A stretch of DNA of 64,000 nucleotides, from contig NZ_CANNDQ010000001.1 of NCBI RefSeq assembly GCF_947503375.1, forward strand, positions 186,001-250,000, given 5' to 3'. Position 1 is the stretch's first letter; every line of letters begins with the position of its first letter. Both the position numbers and the translations under genes were made by a program. Under the pieces are notes generated by a model, which saw only the letters and a list, made by a program, of their open reading frames with translations, was not told the origin of the DNA and ran no database searches. Of the stretch, positions 40,891-51,048 are shown piece by piece. The DNA is from an uncultured Psychroserpens sp. GTDB lineage: Bacteria; Bacteroidota; Bacteroidia; Flavobacteriales; Flavobacteriaceae.

Positions 40891-41067
40891 TTACTTCCCA
40901 AACATTAACAACTCGTTACAAACCACCTCAGTAGTATAACGCTTATTTCCATCTTTATCATCATAACTTCTAGAAGCCAATTTACCTTCTATCATAATCT
41001 CTTTTCCTTTGGTAACATATTTCTCTACAATTTCTGCAGTTTTTCCCCATGCAACAATATTGTGCCA
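40891..41067 (-). pseudogene. ssb: 3' fragment of ssb, single-stranded DNA-binding protein, interrupted by a mobile island
   Basis: Reading leftwards in frame from 41067, the codons give WHNIVAWGKTAEIVEKY, continue through VTKGKE, KLASRSYDDKDGNKRYTTEVV and end NELLMFGK, then TAA at 40891. This is the C-terminal part of a flavobacterial SSB: the OB-fold's WHxVVAWGK strand and the RSYDDKDGxxRYTTEVV segment are characteristic. About 58 codons remain, with no stop or frameshift, but everything before the WH strand is missing; the sequence upstream instead belongs to the serine recombinase gene. The intact frame suggests a recent event. The missing 5' part should lie at the far end of the island, outside the window, unless another ssb exists. 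Confidence 0.88.
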
Positions 41068-42536
41068 TAGTGTTGACCATTTTTGCCTAATTCTAAAGAA
41101 GATAGCGGTGCTATCTTCTTCATTTTAAACTTGATTGTCTTGTTGTTAAATATTATTTCAGTAGTAATAGATTCGATAATTGAACGCTTCTCTGCTCTGT
41201 CTAAATCCTCCCAGTTATTATAAAATTCTAATGATTTTGTAGCTATTTCATTAAAGGAACTCTTGGCATTCTGTAATGCTTCTAATTCTAATCGTAAATC
41301 TTTTACATTCAGACGTAACTGCTCTGTTTTTAAAAAAATAGGTTCGTAATGTTTCTTAAATCCGATTGTTGGTATTTCTCCGCTTAGATTAAGCTCTACT
41401 AGTTTATCAAGTCTCATTTGAGCTTTGTTAAGTTTACTCTCTGCAAATTCAATTTCACCCTCTTTAATCTGAATTTCAATAGCATTAGATTTATTATATT
41501 CGTTTAATTCATCATTAGATTTTAAAAATTGCTTTAGTCTGGTTAAGAAAATATCTTCAAGGTCATCTTTTCCTATCCCATACTTACATTCTTTACACGT
41601 ATATCTTTCACTTTTAGACTGAATAGACATTTTATGTCCTCTTTGACATTTGATAATATTAGTAAACAAGTGAATTCTCTTATTAAGTGGTTGTTTGTTA
41701 ATACTTCCCTTTTCTTGTTCTCTGATAACAACATTTACTGATTCCCATTTTTTTTCACCGATTATTTTTGGGCATTTTAGGTATTCCCATTCTGACTGGG
41801 GTTTTAGCCCTAAAGGATTATCTTTAGTCACAGGTGCTTTATAATTAAATCGTCTTATTCCTTTAGCGTCTGTATTTTTCAGAAGACGTCTAACCGTAGT
41901 ATCAGACCAAGGTTTATTTTTTCGTGTTCGATATCCTTTCTCGTTGAGTTTTCTAGCAACTGTTGACATCCGTTGATGTTCCAAAAATAAATCAAACATT
42001 AATCGTCTCACAGGTGCTTCATCTTCATTAATTACAACCTTAGCGTCAACGATTTTAAACCCATAACTAACCGTGCCTCCAGTAAACTTACCTAAACTTC
42101 TTCGAGTCTCAATTGAAGCTAACATACGTTCTAAGTTGTTTTCACGTTCCCATTGCCCCATTGCAGAGATCATTGTGTAGAAAAGACGTCCACTTGAAGT
42201 AGATGTATCAATAGACTCGCTAAGAGAAATTAAACTTGCGTTATGCTCTTGAAAATACTTAGAATAGAATAACAATTCTTCAGTATTACGTGCCAATCGA
42301 GCGAGCTTACTGAAAATAATCCCTTCGATAATTCCAGCTTTAATATCTCTGAGCATTTTTTGAGTTTCAAGCTGATTGAGAGTTGTTTTTCCTGATACAC
42401 CTGGAAGCACATATACTCGACTTACGTTCCATCCTTTTGAAGAAGCAAACATTCTAGCTCGAGCTTCGTGTATTTCAGGGCTCTCTTTATTTTTTTTGTC
42501 AATGACGCTTACACGAACAAATATTCCAACATTCAT
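41025..42536 (-). CDS. Large serine recombinase (integrase)
   Basis: 503 residues. The N-terminal resolvase domain begins VGIFVRVS, whose Ser10 is the nucleophile, and continues through KLARLARNTEELL, the typical Arg-bearing helix, and MGQWERENNLERM. A recombinase domain follows (TVARKLNEKGYRTRKNKPWSDTTVRRLLKN), then a zinc ribbon at about 295-320 (CQRGHKM ... YTCKEC), and a long coiled coil (about 340-430). This is the layout of large serine integrases. The last 14 or so codons and the stop lie inside DNA that belongs to ssb, so its C-terminus is completed by the target gene. It should catalyse the insertion and excision of the island. Confidence 0.94.
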   Translation of the reverse strand: MNVGIFVRVSVIDKKNKESPEIHEARARMFASSKGWNVSRVYVLPGVSGKTTLNQLETQKMLRDIKAGIIEGIIFSKLARLARNTEELLFYSKYFQEHNASLISLSESIDTSTSSGRLFYTMISAMGQWERENNLERMLASIETRRSLGKFTGGTVSYGFKIVDAKVVINEDEAPVRRLMFDLFLEHQRMSTVARKLNEKGYRTRKNKPWSDTTVRRLLKNTDAKGIRRFNYKAPVTKDNPLGLKPQSEWEYLKCPKIIGEKKWESVNVVIREQEKGSINKQPLNKRIHLFTNIIKCQRGHKMSIQSKSERYTCKECKYGIGKDDLEDIFLTRLKQFLKSNDELNEYNKSNAIEIQIKEGEIEFAESKLNKAQMRLDKLVELNLSGEIPTIGFKKHYEPIFLKTEQLRLNVKDLRLELEALQNAKSSFNEIATKSLEFYNNWEDLDRAEKRSIIESITTEIIFNNKTIKFKMKKIAPLSSLELGKNGQHYGTILLHGEKLQKL

Positions 42537-42554
42537 ATTATCAGTGTTTTAACT

Positions 42555-42585
42555 CTAAAATAAGACATGTTTTGACCAAATCAAA
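42555..42585 (-). promoter_or_regulatory. Candidate promoter of the serine recombinase gene
   Basis: On the minus strand TTTG (42582-42585) and TATTTTAG (42555-42562) are spaced by 19 bases, the Bacteroidota -33/-7 pattern with one or two mismatches in the second box. The recombinase ATG lies 18 bases further on, so the integrase can be transcribed on its own. Confidence 0.4.
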
Positions 42586-42599
42586 GCATACTTTTGTAA

Positions 42600-45590
42600 T
42601 TATTTCTTCTTTCTAAAAAGCTTGGAAATATGTGTTTTTATTGAATGAGGACTAATTAATTCATCACTATTATATTCAGTAACTACTCTAATTCCTTTAA
42701 TCATTTCTTCTCTGGGCTTTTGAGGTTTTATATAGTCATCTAAAAGTTCCGCAAGCTGCTCTGGTAGAATGAAACGAATACATGATAGTTGTGCTTTGTT
42801 TATCCTCTGAGATGCCAGTTTTTCAATATCATCTAAATGATTTTTACGCTTTGAAACCACAACTACAAGATTGTATTTTTCTTTAAGGCACTTTTTGATG
42901 TTTTGAATTTCATAAGATGGACTGTTGGTTTCTGAAACCTCAAAAGCAATTTTTATGTCATCATTACTTAAGACAACGTCTATTCTTCCTCCATCGGATG
43001 TTGGATGTTCAATGACACCTATATAATTCCGATCTTGACCCATCTTTATAATAAGGTTCTGAAGGTAACGATGTGCTTTTAATTCTAATGATATTAGTTC
43101 ACTTTCCTTAATCTGTTTTTTCGCCTCTTCGGTTATGACTTTTGAAGTGATTTCTTTAACGTCACTGCTTTGAGTTCTTGGTCTTACTTTTTTGGGGTTT
43201 TGTTTTGTTTCTTTATTGCTAAATAATCTAAAACGTTCACGTATGATTTCTTCTACTTCTCCCTTAGCTTTGGCAAATTGATCTCTAGAATTTTTTATAA
43301 TTTCTTTTTTTACTACTTCTGCTCTCTTCTGATCATATTCGGGCAGCTTCATTGTCTTTATATTAAAATCATTATCACTACCACCTAGCTTCACAATAGC
43401 TTGACCAATACTCAAAGTTGTCAAGTCTGAAGCATCGAAATATGAAAAACCAGACTCTAACCTCTTAGCATCATTATCTCCTAATCGGAAACAAATTCTA
43501 ATATATGGATTAGCTATGACTGAATTGAGAATTTGAGGGTCAGAGATCTGACTAAGTTCTTGGTGTACCAAAACAAGTCCAAGACCATATTTTCTAGCGC
43601 CACTTAGAATAGACAAAATGCTTGGTGTAATCATGTTTTGAAATTCATCTAAATATATATAATAAGGATCTCGTTCTGACTTTGGTATAGATTGTCTACC
43701 TTGGATGACTTGATTGAACTTAGAAAGAAAAATGGACCCTAATAAAAAGCAGTTCTGCTCACCTATCAATCCTTGAGATAGCTTAATCAAGACAATCTTC
43801 TTTGAGTTCACACAATCGTTAAAATCTATACCTTCATTTTGACAAAACATATTTCTAATAATACGTGGTCTTAAAAATGTATCTATCCTTGTTAGTAATG
43901 GTGCGATTCCCTTTCTCACCATTTGATACTCATGCTCCCAATAATACAATATTGAAGGTTCATCGATGTCTTTTAGATATTCATTTCGAAAACCATCTTC
44001 AATCAAAAATCGTTTTAAATCTAACAATGTCCCTTTTCTATTACCTTCAAGAAATACTGCAATAGCTTGACTAAACACTGCGTTAATGTTATCTCCCCAT
44101 GTAGTTGAGAACTTTTTAAATGATGATACTAAATCAGAACTTAATACGATTTTTTCAATCTCTGATGAAGCACTAAGAATATTGAATCCAATTGGATAAT
44201 CAATATCTGAAGGATCAATGACAATAACATCATGTTTTCTTTTCTCAGGAATGCGTAATAAAATATCTTCAACAACATCTCCATGAGGATCAAAAATTGC
44301 ACAGCCGTTACCAAAAGCTATGTCCTCTAAAACCAAATTGACTAACAATGTGGATTTCCCAACTCCCGTTGAACCTATAATATGAGTATGACTCAAACGA
44401 GAAATGTCACTTAAGCTTACTTCGTGCTTTTCGTTATTGTGAGTATTTAGTCCAATGCTATACTTCTGTTGTTTTGCCTCACATGGTAATAGCTTGGACT
44501 TTCCATGGTTGATTCTCAACTTATGAGAAACAATTGTCTTATTTGGATAATGGACAAAAGTCGATAATTCTTTACTGTTTAATACAAAGCCTAACCGATT
44601 GCTCTGTCTGTGAAGAAGATTATATAGATGAAAATCGTAATCGTATCCTTTATTTGACAATGGAATGAGTTTATTAAACTCTGAAGCTGAGATGCTAGTT
44701 ATACTTTTAATAAAATCTCTAGCGAGGTCTGAACTTCTACTATTACTCTCTCCTTGTGTAGCAACTCTCAATACAACACTAAATAAAGGCGTAGATGTTT
44801 TTTCTTTTGCACAAAACGTCATTTCTGGAGCATCAGCAAAAAAAGAGCCTCCTTTTCCATCGCTAACTGCTATGGGAATATCTTTGGCTAGTGGAGATGA
44901 TATTCCTTTAAATATGATTTGAAATATTGCTACTTCGTCTCCTTTCAATATATCAAAAACTGCAAGTATTGAGGTTAGCGAGTCCAGTTCATATGAACTG
45001 GATGTATTAAGGGGTCTGACAAACTCTTCACTCAAACCAAAATCAGCAATTGCAATGTCTTTACCAAAATCAAATTTAAATTCTTTTGGTTTAAACCTTT
45101 TGAGTATTACATCTGGGAAATATGCGATTAATTGGGATCGAACCCTATCACAATCTGTGTAGTCGCAAACTATTTGAATATCTATTGAATCACTATTCCC
45201 TACTATTTCAAATGAAATTGAATGCTCGGTGAAGGTGAGCATATTCAAAAACTCAATATTTCGTAATTGATTTATCTCTTGATTTCTTTCAAAAAACAAT
45301 CTGAATCCAACAAGAGAAGAAGGTTCAGAAATATAATGTGGTTTGATCGCTTTAAATGAAACTGGCTCTGGTTCCTCTGGTTTTTTTGGTACTACAAAAA
45401 GCTGCAATGCTTGAGATAATAAAGAAGGTGCTTTCCCATCATCGACTATATTATTTTTTGGAGAAACAAATGAGTTGATAGATCGATATGGGACTTCAAT
45501 ATCTACAGGCTCATCAAAAAGGTAATATCCACGGTATAGGTATTCCCATTGATAAAATTGAATAGTGGCTAGTTCACTTGGAGAATACAT
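42600..45590 (-). CDS. Conjugation-type (VirD4/HerA-like) ATPase with nuclease-like C-terminal domain
   Basis: 996 residues. The middle is a DNA-pumping ATPase: Walker A GSTGVGKST (406-414), CAIFDPHGDVVEDIL, Walker B YLDEFQNM (Asp648-Glu649), and LVLVHQELSQI and NSVIANPYIRICFR. These are the marks of type IV secretion coupling or HerA-like proteins. The N-terminal 380 residues match the unnamed domain that precedes this ATPase in many mobile elements. After a linker (about 760-830) comes a small domain with GGRIDVVLSND and FEVSETN (Asp871, Glu884, Ser886), resembling a PD-(D/E)xK nuclease or its inactive relative. It could mobilise the island's DNA; no relaxase is seen nearby. Confidence 0.85.
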   Translation of the reverse strand: MYSPSELATIQFYQWEYLYRGYYLFDEPVDIEVPYRSINSFVSPKNNIVDDGKAPSLLSQALQLFVVPKKPEEPEPVSFKAIKPHYISEPSSLVGFRLFFERNQEINQLRNIEFLNMLTFTEHSISFEIVGNSDSIDIQIVCDYTDCDRVRSQLIAYFPDVILKRFKPKEFKFDFGKDIAIADFGLSEEFVRPLNTSSSYELDSLTSILAVFDILKGDEVAIFQIIFKGISSPLAKDIPIAVSDGKGGSFFADAPEMTFCAKEKTSTPLFSVVLRVATQGESNSRSSDLARDFIKSITSISASEFNKLIPLSNKGYDYDFHLYNLLHRQSNRLGFVLNSKELSTFVHYPNKTIVSHKLRINHGKSKLLPCEAKQQKYSIGLNTHNNEKHEVSLSDISRLSHTHIIGSTGVGKSTLLVNLVLEDIAFGNGCAIFDPHGDVVEDILLRIPEKRKHDVIVIDPSDIDYPIGFNILSASSEIEKIVLSSDLVSSFKKFSTTWGDNINAVFSQAIAVFLEGNRKGTLLDLKRFLIEDGFRNEYLKDIDEPSILYYWEHEYQMVRKGIAPLLTRIDTFLRPRIIRNMFCQNEGIDFNDCVNSKKIVLIKLSQGLIGEQNCFLLGSIFLSKFNQVIQGRQSIPKSERDPYYIYLDEFQNMITPSILSILSGARKYGLGLVLVHQELSQISDPQILNSVIANPYIRICFRLGDNDAKRLESGFSYFDASDLTTLSIGQAIVKLGGSDNDFNIKTMKLPEYDQKRAEVVKKEIIKNSRDQFAKAKGEVEEIIRERFRLFSNKETKQNPKKVRPRTQSSDVKEITSKVITEEAKKQIKESELISLELKAHRYLQNLIIKMGQDRNYIGVIEHPTSDGGRIDVVLSNDDIKIAFEVSETNSPSYEIQNIKKCLKEKYNLVVVVSKRKNHLDDIEKLASQRINKAQLSCIRFILPEQLAELLDDYIKPQKPREEMIKGIRVVTEYNSDELISPHSIKTHISKLFRKKK

Positions 45591-45594
45591 ACTC

Positions 45595-46182
45595 CTAACG
45601 TGTGAAAATATCGTTTAGAATTGGCTTGCGATCATTTTCTGATATTGCACGTATTCCTTTATCCTTAGTGATTTCATCAATAACCTTCAAAACTGATGAT
45701 TGTGCATAGGTCATAAACATACTAGCCGTATCTATTTTGTAATACGTCACAGGAAACAATTTTCTCGTTAACCAACCTCCAATAAATGGGATTTTTGAAA
45801 TAATAATTTGCAAAACAGAATTCTTATAGAGTAACCACCATGAAACAAAAAACCCTTTCCCAAAAGGTGCTGCACAAATATCATATTGATACTCTTTCCA
45901 TTTTACGCGTATATATCTTCTTCTTTGTGAAAACATACTCCCTTCATAAAGTGAAACATCATTAGCGTTGATGCCACTTACGCCTTGACTCAGCAATTCT
46001 TTTTTGAATAACTGGTAAAAATCCTCTGTGGAATAATTAAAATCCTCAATCAAAGTATTCCAATTAGAATGATAATACTTTAATGTTTTTGTGAAAATGA
46101 ATTTTAGGATAACAAAACTGATTAATCCATATAAAATGTAGATTAGGTATTGTGTAAAATAAAAGAAAAACTCATTCATCAT
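45595..46182 (-). CDS. Membrane protein of unknown function, partner of the ATPase
   Basis: 195 residues. One or two hydrophobic helices at 8-29, then a soluble region (YYHSNWNTLIEDFNYSTEDFYQLF ... RRRYIRVKWKEYQYDICAAPFGKGFFVSWWLL) and another hydrophobic stretch near 125-145 (IIISKIPFIGGWL). It ends in helices (SVLKVIDEITKDKG). I do not recognise the family with certainty. It starts two bases after the preceding gene and stops four bases before the ATPase gene, so the two are surely co-translated; it may anchor the ATPase to the membrane. Confidence 0.65.
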   Translation of the reverse strand: MMNEFFFYFTQYLIYILYGLISFVILKFIFTKTLKYYHSNWNTLIEDFNYSTEDFYQLFKKELLSQGVSGINANDVSLYEGSMFSQRRRYIRVKWKEYQYDICAAPFGKGFFVSWWLLYKNSVLQIIISKIPFIGGWLTRKLFPVTYYKIDTASMFMTYAQSSVLKVIDEITKDKGIRAISENDRKPILNDIFTR

Positions 46183-46184
46183 AT

Positions 46185-46646
46185 TTACTTTTTAATGAAT
46201 AATTTTGACCATTGTTTATTATCACTTTTTATATGTATCAAGTAAATTCCACTTAAAAACCTACTAACATCAATAGATATTGAGTTTTCAACAATTTGGG
46301 CATTATGATCTAAGATCATTTTCCCATCAACGTCAAACAATTGAATCTCTAATTGATTAGACACTAGTTCAGTAGGCATTTGAATATTCAAAATTTTATT
46401 AGTTGGATTTGGATATACGATTATTCGGTTTTTTAGTACCTCTTCATCTAAACTTAAGGTTTCAATATTCAGTTGTGTTCGATTCCCTAAATTATCGTAG
46501 ACATAATCATGTGTTGAGCCATCATTAAAAACAACCTGAACCAAACGGTTCAAGTTGTCATAACTGTAAGTTGTTGTTTCTTGTTGTAATTGAGCATTAG
46601 CTGAAATGCCAAATAGTATTAATAAGTATTTAATTTTTGTTTTCAT
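46185..46646 (-). CDS. Mini YD-repeat protein with type A T9SS sorting tail
   Basis: 153 residues. A signal peptide (KYLLILFGISANAQ) is followed by barely two YD repeats (YSYDNLNRLVQVVFNDGS, DYVYDNLGNRTQLN). Then comes a complete type A sorting domain (NRIIVYPNPTNKILNIQMP ... SGIYLIHIKSD, KLFIKK), the signal by which Bacteroidota export proteins through the type IX system and anchor them at the surface. It looks like the very tail of an Rhs protein made free-standing. It overlaps the upstream membrane gene by 17 bases and lies two bases before the next gene, in one operon with the toxin. Confidence 0.82.
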   Translation of the reverse strand: MKTKIKYLLILFGISANAQLQQETTTYSYDNLNRLVQVVFNDGSTHDYVYDNLGNRTQLNIETLSLDEEVLKNRIIVYPNPTNKILNIQMPTELVSNQLEIQLFDVDGKMILDHNAQIVENSISIDVSRFLSGIYLIHIKSDNKQWSKLFIKK

Positions 46647-47055
46647 AAGTACGAAATTTTAAACGTATTGGGAGTCTATATAAAGTAATTAGAAATATTG
46701 ATATGATGGTAAATGATTTAAGAAATACAAGAATAACGGGCAACTCAAAATATTTGGGCATCAAACCTAAACTATACTGTATAAGATTTAAACTTTCATA
46801 AGTTATATATAAACTGATCAAATTTTTAATAAAACCTAAACGATAATTCTTAAATTTGCTTTTGAACATGAGAATAATTTTAATCAATAACAAAAGAATC
46901 ACAATTTGTAAAAAATATCTTAAGAATAGATCATTTTTAAATTCAATTCTCACCATCATTTCTGCACTCAATATTATCAATTGAAAAAATAATAATCGTA
47001 AAAAATTAATATCTAACTTCAAGTTGCGTAACATCTTGTTCTTTAATAAAATCAT
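46630..47055 (-). CDS. Four-helix membrane protein, candidate immunity to the Rhs toxin
   Basis: 141 residues from ATG 47055 (or 134 from 47034). Four hydrophobic segments (about 17-35, 42-62, 75-95 and 108-128), with basic ends, and no other motif. It starts inside the 3' end of the Rhs toxin gene, overlapping it by up to 50 bases, and its own end overlaps the next gene. A small gene directly behind a polymorphic toxin domain is usually its immunity gene, and a membrane or periplasmic protein fits a toxin that acts on peptidoglycan. That role is inference from position. Confidence 0.6.
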   Translation of the reverse strand: MILLKNKMLRNLKLDINFLRLLFFQLIILSAEMMVRIEFKNDLFLRYFLQIVILLLLIKIILMFKSKFKNYRLGFIKNLISLYITYESLNLIQYSLGLMPKYFELPVILVFLKSFTIISIFLITLYRLPIRLKFRTYENKN

Positions 47056-50000
47056 ATATAATTCCTATGTTTTGACCCGTATCAATACAGCCTGCTGAAC
47101 CATTAATTAAACCACCATGTAGATAAAAATTATTTCTTCCCCAATTATTATTCCCATCGATTGGTTTAAGCGATATGTTGTAATCTCCCCAGTCCCCGTT
47201 GCGCGGATTAACAATATTTATTAGTTGTCTCCATTTTGGTATGTAATCCCAGTCATTTCCTAAACTGTAAGTTCCTTCTGGAATAGGTCCTAAATTTTTC
47301 AGGCTTTGATACTGAGATTGATTTATATATTTTCCTCTACCTGAGGTTGCAAAAGTTGAATAAATTGTATTCCCTTCTGAATTTAAAACTGATAAGTAGT
47401 TACCATCGTAATATAAACTCTTTACTTCAGAACTACTAGAGGAACAAATATCATATCCCACATAAGCCTTACCACTCGGATCAACACTACTAATCGGATT
47501 ATTATCAGCATAAGGATATAAATTAATATGCCAAATAGGGTCTTCGGATAAGAACCTACCAATTGATGGCTCGTAGTATCGTGCTCGCATATAGTATAAA
47601 TCATTTGTTTCATACTCTACACCATAGATGCCTACATATCTAAATTGGTTAGTATCATTTTCAGGCTCAAAGGTTCTAGTTACTCTTCCAAAATCATCAT
47701 AACGATACTGATGTGTGATGTTACCTAACTCATCTGTCATCATTACCGTACTCCCTCTTATATCACCATGATAGTAGTGTAAATCTCCATTGGGTTGCAT
47801 TCTCGTAAGAAGCATTCCGCTTGGACTATAGACATAATATTGTATAGGGTTGCTGTCCTCATCTAATTCAACGAGTATATTATCTAACCTAACATCTCTA
47901 ATATACTTTGTAGTTTCTCCGTTTCTCACTGCTTCTACACGTTGATTGTAAGCATTATAATCAAAACTAAATGTATTGTCAACATCTGAATAACTTGTTA
48001 ATCGATCATCAATATCAAAGGTATAAGATATGTCTGCTCCTTCGTTTATTGTATTCCCATCGTCATCTAAGTTATAGCTTACTCCACCAGCTGATGTAAT
48101 TTGATTGTTTTCATCGTAACTATAAGAGAAATTAATGGAATTACTGGAATCTCCTGGATTAAAGCCTGGAGGAATTGGAGTGAAGTAGTCATTACTAACG
48201 GTAATATTTCCTCTACTATCTAAAAGGTGAGCACCTGTATACATGACAGAATTTGTATCTAAATTTTCATGTTGAATAAATCTCAATCTACCTGCCTCAT
48301 CATAGTCGTAATTTATTCTAATATTGTTTCCAAGATCAATCCACTTAATTCTATCATCATCGTAATATTCATATTCTGCAATAATATCATTACCACTACC
48401 AACATTTCTATTTAGGGAAACAATCCATATTCTATTTTTGTTGTCATATTGATAATCTACCTCGACATCAATTCCATTAATACTTGGATATAATAAATCT
48501 TCAACTTGATTAGTATCTGTGTAATCATACTCCACATCAAAGCCATGAACTGTAGTTACTTTTTCTAGTAGGTTTAGATTATCATAATCAAACTCCATTG
48601 TTCCATACGCATTGGTAATATCATCAACGAGGTTTCTATTATTATAATCGATGTCTGTAATGGTAGCTGTTTCTTGTAATCGACCATCATTGTCATAGTC
48701 ATAATCAATATCAATGCCTGAAGGTTTGGTGATTTCTTCTAAATACCCTTCATCACCATAATCAAATTGAGTTACTAGATTTCCAAATTGTTCTTCAATC
48801 ACTCGGTCTTCATCGTCATAAGTAAATGATGTCGCAACATTATTGGCATTCATTATTTGTATTAAATTATCATTCTCATCATAATCGTAAGCAGTCACAA
48901 AACCACCCGAGTTAATCATTTGAGTAATATTATCATTATCATCATACTCATATGAAGAAATGAGACCATTATCATCTCTTTCCAAAAGTCGATTTATTCC
49001 ATCGTAAGTAAATGCACTACTGATGTTTTCAGGTGCATTCATTGTTGATACAGCACCATCATTTTCATACGTATAATTTACTGTAATTCCTTCTTGGTTT
49101 GTTTGTGATAATAATTGTCCGTGAGAATCATAAGTGAAAAAAATTGAGTTATTATAAGCGTCTATAATTTCAATGAGGTTCTCATCATTATCGTAAACAA
49201 ATTCTGTGATATTACCTTCTGGATCTGTATATTCTACAAGATTATTATTGTTATCATAATCAAACTCTTGCACAACATCACCATTCTCTTTATCAATTCG
49301 AGTTATGTTTCCATTATTATCGTAATCATATTCAATATCTACTCCATTTAAATTTGTGTCTGTTGGACGTAATACATTAATCCCAGAAGATGGGTAATTG
49401 ATTGTAATTTCATCTGTATCACTTGAATAATCTGTAACTAAACCATTTTCGTTAAATGCATAATCTTCAGTAAACATTCCTCCACTAGGCAATGGTGTTT
49501 GTACTTCAGAAGTCAAGGTATTACTTTCAAAATCAAACTCTATATTAACTTCAATTGGGTCATCATCATTCATTTGATACTGACTCAGTTTTCCATTGAT
49601 ATCGTACTCAGCTTCAATTTGATTTCCTCTTGGTAAATCAATTCTGAACATTAAATATTGTTCATACTCATTATCTTGATAATACTGATAAGTAGTATTG
49701 TTGTTTTTTGCATCCTCAAATGCTACTAAAACTGGATACTGAAAAGCAAAATTTGAATTCACTCCTGAATATTCAAAATGAATATCTCTATTGATTGGAT
49801 CTTCAATTTTTTCAATGAGGTCAGTATCATCCAAATACTCAAATTCTAAACGCTTACCAGATGGAGCAATAACTTCTTCAATACGTCTAGTATCTTCCTC
49901 TTCTGCATTTTCGTATTCTATATTAATTTCATTTCCGTTAGGGTCTTCAATTTCAATGAGATAATAAATATTCCTATCATTGTCTAGCTTTTCAAATCGA

Positions 50001-50950
50001 TAACGAACCTGATTCTTTTTAGTAATATCAATACGATCATTATCCGAATCATCAAACTCATCATAAACACCAAGAGTTACATATTCATTTTCATCTTCAT
50101 TGTATATGTCAATTGTTCCGTCTGGCCAGATAATGTAATAGTAGTCTATTGAGTCTTCACCTACATTGTTTTCTCTTACGATGTAAGCATTATAAGTATG
50201 TGACCATCCTCTTCCAAGTGGTTGAATAGGATAAAAAGATTGAGGCATTTCTACCATTTGAGTACTGTAGAAATGAGAAAAATTTAGATTCATTTTTCTA
50301 TCAGGTATTATGAAACTATTTTTGGCATAGTGATTAAATACACCTTGCTCTATTCCTCTAGAAAACCCTAATGTTGATGAATTGTATATACCAGTTGTAA
50401 AGTAATTATCAATATCTAATAATTCACTCTGAGTAGGGGTCGAAACATTAGCTTCAAGAAATTCAATATAGTCTAATGTATCGCTGAATGGGAGTCCCAA
50501 TTCTGGTTGTAATTGAGACGTATTAGGAAGCATGCCTAATACATAGGCTGTTACAATATGGTCATAATAAATTGTATTCTGGTTGACATCACTGTAAGGT
50601 TCAGAGCCATTTGTAATTAAAGGTACATTAAATGCCTCAATGAGAGCTTTAATAATGCTAGCATGAAATGGTATTTGACCAACATTAAAGTTTTGATCTT
50701 CACGTCTCAAGACTGAAATACCATCTTGAAACTCTAAATAACTTAGCAATCTTGCTTTTTTGCTAAACCCAGAATTTTCGCTAAGATCAACAAAAATATT
50801 TGGAAATGATGCTGCTGGGTAATCATCAGGGTCAGCATTGCTTCCGTATATAGAACTATAAATTGCATTTGTTAATCCTAATTTACTTGTTTGAGCATTA
50901 ATATCAAGTAAAAACAAGATGATAATTAGACTAGTAAAGTAAAATCTCAT
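47006..50950 (-). CDS. Rhs/YD-repeat toxin with Tlde1-like (L,D-transpeptidase) C-terminal domain
   Basis: 1314 residues from ATG 50950, where a signal peptide begins (SLIIILFLLDINAQ); a longer frame reaching 51037 has no such start. The N-terminal 200 residues are unrecognised; then come FSHFYSTQ and LGRGWSHTYNAYI (start of the Rhs shell), over 25 YD repeats (YDYDNNGN type) and the core end RFLSEDPIWHINLYPYADNNPISSVDPSG. The last ~156 residues (1159-1314) are the toxin: SGRGKYIN, GPIPEGTY, GRNNFYLHGG and GSAGCID, with His1278 and Cys1288. This is the pattern of Tlde1/DUF2778 enzymes, which cut or exchange peptidoglycan cross-links. The next gene overlaps its end and is likely immunity. Confidence 0.88.
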   Translation of the reverse strand: MRFYFTSLIIILFLLDINAQTSKLGLTNAIYSSIYGSNADPDDYPAASFPNIFVDLSENSGFSKKARLLSYLEFQDGISVLRREDQNFNVGQIPFHASIIKALIEAFNVPLITNGSEPYSDVNQNTIYYDHIVTAYVLGMLPNTSQLQPELGLPFSDTLDYIEFLEANVSTPTQSELLDIDNYFTTGIYNSSTLGFSRGIEQGVFNHYAKNSFIIPDRKMNLNFSHFYSTQMVEMPQSFYPIQPLGRGWSHTYNAYIVRENNVGEDSIDYYYIIWPDGTIDIYNEDENEYVTLGVYDEFDDSDNDRIDITKKNQVRYRFEKLDNDRNIYYLIEIEDPNGNEINIEYENAEEEDTRRIEEVIAPSGKRLEFEYLDDTDLIEKIEDPINRDIHFEYSGVNSNFAFQYPVLVAFEDAKNNNTTYQYYQDNEYEQYLMFRIDLPRGNQIEAEYDINGKLSQYQMNDDDPIEVNIEFDFESNTLTSEVQTPLPSGGMFTEDYAFNENGLVTDYSSDTDEITINYPSSGINVLRPTDTNLNGVDIEYDYDNNGNITRIDKENGDVVQEFDYDNNNNLVEYTDPEGNITEFVYDNDENLIEIIDAYNNSIFFTYDSHGQLLSQTNQEGITVNYTYENDGAVSTMNAPENISSAFTYDGINRLLERDDNGLISSYEYDDNDNITQMINSGGFVTAYDYDENDNLIQIMNANNVATSFTYDDEDRVIEEQFGNLVTQFDYGDEGYLEEITKPSGIDIDYDYDNDGRLQETATITDIDYNNRNLVDDITNAYGTMEFDYDNLNLLEKVTTVHGFDVEYDYTDTNQVEDLLYPSINGIDVEVDYQYDNKNRIWIVSLNRNVGSGNDIIAEYEYYDDDRIKWIDLGNNIRINYDYDEAGRLRFIQHENLDTNSVMYTGAHLLDSRGNITVSNDYFTPIPPGFNPGDSSNSINFSYSYDENNQITSAGGVSYNLDDDGNTINEGADISYTFDIDDRLTSYSDVDNTFSFDYNAYNQRVEAVRNGETTKYIRDVRLDNILVELDEDSNPIQYYVYSPSGMLLTRMQPNGDLHYYHGDIRGSTVMMTDELGNITHQYRYDDFGRVTRTFEPENDTNQFRYVGIYGVEYETNDLYYMRARYYEPSIGRFLSEDPIWHINLYPYADNNPISSVDPSGKAYVGYDICSSSSSEVKSLYYDGNYLSVLNSEGNTIYSTFATSGRGKYINQSQYQSLKNLGPIPEGTYSLGNDWDYIPKWRQLINIVNPRNGDWGDYNISLKPIDGNNNWGRNNFYLHGGLINGSAGCIDTGQNIGIIYDFIKEQDVTQLEVRY

Positions 50951-50976
50951 GGGTAATAATTTTGAATTACATTTAT

Positions 50977-51008
50977 CAAAACTATGTGTAAAATGAGTCA
51001 AAAACCAA
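50977..51008 (-). promoter_or_regulatory. Candidate promoter of the Rhs-Tlde1 gene
   Basis: On the minus strand TTG (51006-51008) is followed after 21 bases by TAGTTTTG (50977-50984), a perfect TAnnTTTG box, 26 bases before the ATG. A shared 18-base motif lies 22 bases further upstream. Confidence 0.5.
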
Positions 51009-51030
51009 GTTAAATATTCTAATGATTTTG

Positions 51031-51048
51031 ATTTCACCCCTCAGGGTG
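51031..51048 (-). promoter_or_regulatory. Shared operator-like motif upstream of the Rhs-Tlde1 gene
   Basis: Minus strand CACCCTGAGGGGTGAAAT, with a TCACCC-N4-GGGTGA dyad at its core, 80 bases before the Rhs ATG. It matches 16 of 18 bases with the motif at 53092, which lies at a similar distance before the sensor kinase gene and in the same orientation to its gene. Confidence 0.55.

Follow-up and report, generated by a model that had tools for sequence, protein, structure and literature searches.

Which gene protects the producer of the Rhs-Tlde1 toxin encoded on contig NZ_CANNDQ010000001.1 of an uncultured Psychroserpens sp.? In the stretch of 64,000 nucleotides (nt) analyzed here (positions 186,001–250,000 of the contig, in the following termed the window), the toxin gene is followed by an open reading frame (ORF) of 141 codons, which is small and lies directly downstream of, and overlapping with, the toxin gene, as is generally expected of the immunity gene of a polymorphic toxin. 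The encoded protein of 141 amino acids (aa) is probably the cognate four-transmembrane (TM) inner-membrane immunity protein of Rhs-Tlde1, with the mechanism outlined further below as the leading version. An initial annotation had already read the gene in this sense, and as a prediction this reading gains support from the comparison of Tlde1 loci. The features on which the argument builds are the following:

46630–47055, minus strand: gene proposed to confer immunity, predicted to encode a four-helix membrane protein of 141 aa (134 aa from the ATG at 47034); ORF without family match, directly after the Tlde1 domain
47006–51037, minus strand: Rhs polymorphic toxin gene, 1343 codons from GTG; RHS repeats (PF05593, 2.8e-36) and RHS-associated core (TIGR03696, 9.7e-17)
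47009–47482, minus strand: Tlde1 toxin domain of 158 aa, starting at DPSGK (residue 1186) and reaching the C-terminus; PF10908, AlphaFold2 (AF2) model, Foldseek and PDB profile
47087–47119, minus strand: catalytic residues H1307 (47117–47119), S1314 (47096–47098) and C1317 (47087–47089) in HGGLINGSAGC; invariant columns

Because the 141-aa gene is an orphan, loci were collected by toxin sequence alone and the downstream gene was asked for afterwards; two Bacteroidota loci (L024, L025) came first, and a contig scan then gave 80 loci from many phyla. Under a fixed partner rule (start −60 to +250 of the toxin stop, 60–200 aa, at least two hydropathy peaks), a partner was found directly downstream in 66 of the 80 testable Tlde1 loci, compared to 16 of 584 other ORFs of the same loci (Fisher, 4e-61), 3 of 30 other Rhs toxins of the window's family (Fisher, 2e-12) and none of the nine other Rhs toxins of the window's genome, the partners of which are lipoprotein-like or soluble-looking. 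The same kind of partner thus recurs with Tlde1 and not with other toxin ends. In several of the loci failing the rule, the contig ends or the toxin is frameshifted or mis-framed. Four loci added later (on Photobacterium, Eleftheria and Cupriavidus plasmids and on a faecal phage contig) all feature the partner; the Photobacterium and Eleftheria plasmid toxins are unrelated, and the Cupriavidus locus is a near copy of one already in the set. Small polytopic partners accompany Rhs, MuF, peptidoglycan-binding and stand-alone carriers of Tlde1, but not other Rhs ends, and therefore track the toxin activity, the target of which is peptidoglycan, rather than the carrier.

The toxin and the gene overlapping it

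The C-terminus of the Rhs protein is a genuine Tlde1 (L,D-transpeptidase-like) domain with intact catalytic His, Ser and Cys. It matches PF10908 (5e-9, 37.1 bits, curated cut-off 30.1), a profile of 45 relatives matches only Tlde1a in the PDB (7uma/7uo3/7uo8, 6.4e-11), and a Foldseek search with the AF2 model of the domain (predicted local distance difference test, pLDDT, 84.8; predicted template modelling score, pTM, 0.79) returned Tlde1a on top (7uo3/7uo8/7uma, 3.9e-7), followed by other enzymes of the L,D-transpeptidase fold, so that the toxin call of the initial annotation holds. Residues H120, S127 and C130 of the domain, corresponding to H1307, S1314 and C1317, fall into columns that are invariant in 45 Tlde1 domains. 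The window toxin has Ala in place of the second His found in the Salmonella motif, as does the family consensus GSAGCI. By homology to Tlde1a, the domain would act as an L,D-carboxypeptidase/transpeptidase-exchange enzyme. The real start of the Rhs protein is probably M30 (MRFYFTSLIIILFLL...), which would endow it with a signal-peptide-like N-terminus. No VipB/TssC, the sheath protein of the type VI secretion system (T6SS), was detected in the genome, and SprA of the type IX secretion system (T9SS) is present. Together with the signal-peptide-like N-terminus, this is why the "T6SS" in the name of Tlde1 should not be carried over to this locus.

The start of the 141-codon ORF falls within the final part of the Rhs ORF, with an overlap of 50 nt for the ATG at 47055 and 29 nt for the second ATG at 47034, in agreement with the overlap of up to 50 bases claimed before. 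An AGGA resembling a Shine-Dalgarno motif is located about 8 nt 5′ of the ATG at 47055 ("CATAGGAATTATATATG"), and the following gene (46185–46646) overlaps the 3′ end of the ORF by 17 nt in a tightly packed cluster. None of 20,000 random sequences (first-order Markov, composition of the unique 376 nt of the ORF) was open in one frame; the openness of the ORF therefore exceeds chance, given the AT-rich DNA. At second codon positions, the fraction of T amounts to 0.54, a value expected of a hydrophobic protein.

No match to the 141-aa protein was obtained in Pfam, NCBIfam, PHROGs or PADLOC, and neither Imm16, Imm17 and Imm57 nor other curated immunity families of Pfam and NCBIfam match it up to E=1, which bears out the earlier remark that no known Tlde1 immunity family is recognized and that the family may be new. 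The gene is present in a single copy in its own genome, and no credible homologue was found in 250 genomes of the family, with matches at chance level only, nor any relative in a GTDB contig scan of about 85,000 species. The best of the 250-genome matches (E 7e-4, 33% over 52 residues) lies inside an unrelated 442-aa frame and many others contain stops; they were rejected. The gene standing beside unrelated toxin ends, which had been named as a case contrary to immunity, was not seen, no homologue being detectable anywhere searched. The proposed look for the same small gene beside Tlde1-like Rhs ends, in turn, revealed genes of this kind there, and not this very gene. The protein and the partner families beside Tlde1 appear to be undescribed in the libraries searched; the principle of TM immunity against L,D-peptidase toxins is already known and was noted in 2012.

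Predicted topology and relation to the toxin clade

The predicted membrane segments of the 141-aa protein are as follows:

46945–47010, minus strand: TM helix 1, residues 16–37; AF2 single-sequence helix and hydropathy peak
46852–46929, minus strand: TM helix 2, residues 43–68; hydropathy and AF2 helix
46762–46836, minus strand: TM helix 3 (TM3), residues 74–98, weakly hydrophobic and E/N/Q-bearing; AF2 helix, span inferred from positive-inside charges, below the hydropathy threshold
46675–46740, minus strand: TM helix 4, about residues 106–127 of the predicted helix 106–139; hydropathy and AF2 helix

Single-sequence AF2 modelling gave four long helices (16–37, 43–68, 74–98 and 106–139) at low confidence (pLDDT 67, pTM 0.28). 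K/R residues number four at the N-terminus, five in the middle loop and five at the C-terminus, and this positive charge at all three sites implies that the chain crosses the membrane an even number of times. An arrangement of four spans, with the N- and the C-terminus both cytoplasmic, would hence be reasonable but not certain, and in it the predicted periplasmic loops are very short (about 5–10 residues). The four helices of the initial annotation are thus backed by the AF2 model and the charges, whereas hydropathy resolves only three clear peaks besides a weak, polar TM3.

A tree built from 76 Tlde1 domains places the window toxin in a clade of 11 members (support 99/94), in which all eight readable partners feature 119–150 aa and four hydropathy peaks. 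Partners in other Tlde1 clades mostly have two or three predicted helices; by partner family, which was assigned by hand here as well as in the count of 7/8 given below, four helices occur in 7/7 families of the window clade vs. about 2/16 elsewhere (p about 1e-4). With regard to size (about 120–150 aa), predicted helix number and adjacency to the toxin gene, the 141-aa protein fits the partners of its clade. Homology between partners within this clade is detectable only for L032–L062, and an alignment of the 141-aa protein with other four-helix partners, suggestive by eye, was rejected after a segment-preserving shuffle (z −0.6 to 0.6). The partners of the window clade could either go back to one ancestor and have diverged past recognition, or represent small polytopic proteins that were recruited repeatedly. 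It is also conceivable, but we would give it somewhat less than even credit, that the two- to four-helix Tlde1 partners make up a large class of immunity proteins of the inner membrane, uncurated and present in many phyla, which descends with the toxins, has lost its sequence homology by fast divergence and follows the toxin clade in helix number; Tlde1 would then be countered mainly within the membrane and not by a soluble periplasmic inhibitor.

Several points limit the evidence or weigh against the immunity reading. The codon-usage score of the 141-aa ORF does not separate the frames (0.03 for its own frame, 0.11 for another); codon usage alone therefore provides no support for coding. TM3 is marginal, and TM counts of all proteins stem from a simple hydropathy scan and not from a trained predictor. 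The held-out, clade-like member L162 features three predicted helices in 87 aa, and counting it lowers the four-helix partner families of the window clade to 7/8 (p about 7e-4). Moreover, the 141-aa protein shares no sequence similarity with any other partner (phmmer singleton); its link to them therefore rests on position, size and helix number. The loci are phylogenetically non-independent, and one contig was counted twice (L024/L108). Finally, Tlde1/Tldi1 of Salmonella SPI-6, one of the closest known systems, features a homologous toxin domain (22% identity, same fold) and an immunity gene paired with the toxin gene, but Tldi1 is apparently soluble and periplasmic, in contrast to the polytopic partner in the window, and TM immunity is therefore not universal for the Tlde1 family. 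Tlde1a did not co-purify with Tldi1, leaving direct binding unproven in the Salmonella pair, too. Salmonella Tlde1 is furthermore delivered by the T6SS, whereas the window toxin has an Rhs carrier with a signal-peptide-like N-terminus and a genome in which no VipB/TssC was detected. The features of Tldi1, a Sec signal and a soluble periplasmic domain, were not found in the 141-aa protein, in which helices extend along nearly the whole chain and no sizeable periplasmic domain is left.

Proposed mode of protection and competing functions

Protection by the 141-aa protein, direct toxin binding and the topology, as we infer them, could be combined as follows. Owing to the signal-peptide-like N-terminus of Rhs-Tlde1, the toxin domain would travel across the periplasm of the cell that makes it, and it would also arrive there from sister cells. 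The 141-aa protein would reside in the inner membrane with four helices and both ends in the cytoplasm. At the membrane surface, its short periplasmic loops and helix ends would most likely bind the toxin and block its active-site cleft. This direct occlusion is the version we prefer, and an antidote placed in the inner membrane suits a toxin whose route leads through the periplasm of its own producer.

Comparable antidotes are found in the literature. A subset of the immunity proteins linked to L,D-peptidase toxins is secreted or TM (Zhang et al., 2012; PMC3482391), and the 141-aa protein shares the principle of a TM antidote with this Tox-LD-peptidase immunity. However, the families listed there for L,D-peptidase toxins, Imm16 (alpha+beta) and Imm57 (mostly alpha), are matched neither by the 141-aa protein nor by the 20 other Tlde1 partners scanned. 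Imm17 and Imm-CdiI (PMC3482391) are likewise small polytopic immunity proteins of polymorphic toxins, but contain two helices and show no Pfam match to the 141-aa protein. Imm-Act1, a two-TM immunity protein of a Salmonella T6SS effector, is also thought to act at the membrane (PMC12994826), although this effector belongs to another toxin family and apparently leaves the sacculus intact.

The main alternative to toxin occlusion is immunity via the target, in which nascent peptidoglycan or its synthases are shielded or altered at the membrane and the L,D-enzyme cannot act. In fact, the short periplasmic loops offer little surface for occluding an enzyme cleft, and the partners are polytopic and not soluble. 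Nevertheless, we consider this option unlikely, as the partners vary in sequence along with the toxins (they fall into many phmmer clusters and singletons), which would be expected more of toxin-specific binding than of a conserved substrate, and as partner topology follows the toxin clade.

Another option could be a membrane accessory for toxin export or release (holin-like or chaperone) instead of immunity, consistent with a gene that is co-encoded and overlapping with the toxin gene and with the fact that release can be served by small multi-TM proteins. This appears improbable in view of the same kind of partner occurring with Rhs, MuF phage-head, peptidoglycan-binding and stand-alone carriers, and being absent from the other Rhs toxins of the genome and rare in those of the family. 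Just as poor are the chances that the real immunity gene is one of the neighbors on the same, tightly packed strand, namely 46185–46646, the product of which carries a secretion signal and could get to the periplasm, or the gene of a 195-aa protein (45595–46182). The former, however, combines a YD repeat with a T9SS type A sorting domain and looks more surface- or Rhs-derived-like, the latter adjoins a conjugation-type ATPase gene, and Tlde1 partners elsewhere hold the first downstream position. That the ORF is spurious is hardly credible: the uninformative codon usage and the lack of homologues that could show conservation speak for it, but the open frame, the upstream AGGA and the agreement of gene order and protein character with the 66 of 80 Tlde1 loci stand against it.

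Taking the 141-aa protein as immunity protein, the locus offers a concrete candidate for the antidote to a Tlde1 toxin carried on Rhs, in a genome without a detected T6SS sheath protein. The usual partner of the widespread Tlde1 domain is a small polytopic membrane protein, which is covered by no Pfam or NCBIfam family (20 other partners scanned in Pfam, 10 of them in NCBIfam), and annotation pipelines could name many "hypothetical" genes beside Tlde1 domains accordingly. At the same time, one may ask how an enzyme of the periplasm is blocked by a partner that has hardly any domain there.

Neighboring genes and further loci

The gene directly after the candidate immunity gene (46185–46646, minus strand) encodes 153 aa with a signal peptide, in addition to the YD repeat and sorting domain mentioned above. 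Next to another Rhs toxin of the same genome (L158), there is likewise a protein with a T9SS-like C-terminus, and such T9SS-type neighbors may have to do with how Rhs proteins are delivered in this genome, which has T9SS and no detected VipB. Further downstream, 41025–46182 (minus strand) encodes a CcrB-like serine recombinase, the conjugation-type ATPase (996 aa), the C-terminus of which may be a nuclease domain, and the 195-aa membrane protein. Two genomes of the same genus kept the neighboring PBP1C-like gene (83–84% identity) but none of these genes, which are therefore considered an accessory island; as flanking direct repeats, only a 14-nt AT-rich chance match was found. A further locus, L156 (G000:C1:629500-645500), comprises an array of five cassettes, in each of which an Rhs core with its C-terminal toxin is followed by a small gene of its own, with transposase-like ORFs in between; in one cassette, an immunity-like lipoprotein gene is duplicated (237 and 245 aa).

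Some matches of the toxin searches were set aside. Weak genome matches turned out as a Na+/H+ antiporter region (L022) and a glycine-rich surface protein (L023) and not as Tlde1. Ensifer/Ciceribacter plasmid matches (long ORFs with an outer-membrane-like end) and L166 (without a typical toxin end) were not used as support. A viral contig scan yielded no member of the window's toxin clade, and a Bacteroidia genome scan with the Tlde1 profile added no usable locus.

In Dickeya phage vB_DsoM_AD1 (L168) and Erwinia jumbo phages, a small DUF2778/Tlde1-like gene is followed by an ssDNA-binding gene, without a membrane partner. In L040 and L057 (rumen Alphaproteobacteria), Tlde1 forms part of a fusion with a phage Mu F-like (MuF) head protein and a gene for a three-helix membrane protein lies downstream; these are apparently phage-head-borne peptidoglycan toxins with immunity. 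On a Deltaproteobacteria contig (L037:5264-5960), a second partial Tlde1 end (GGERPGSAGCIDVG...) seems to lie 3′ of a Tlde1 gene and its four-helix partner, which suggests tandem toxin cassettes.
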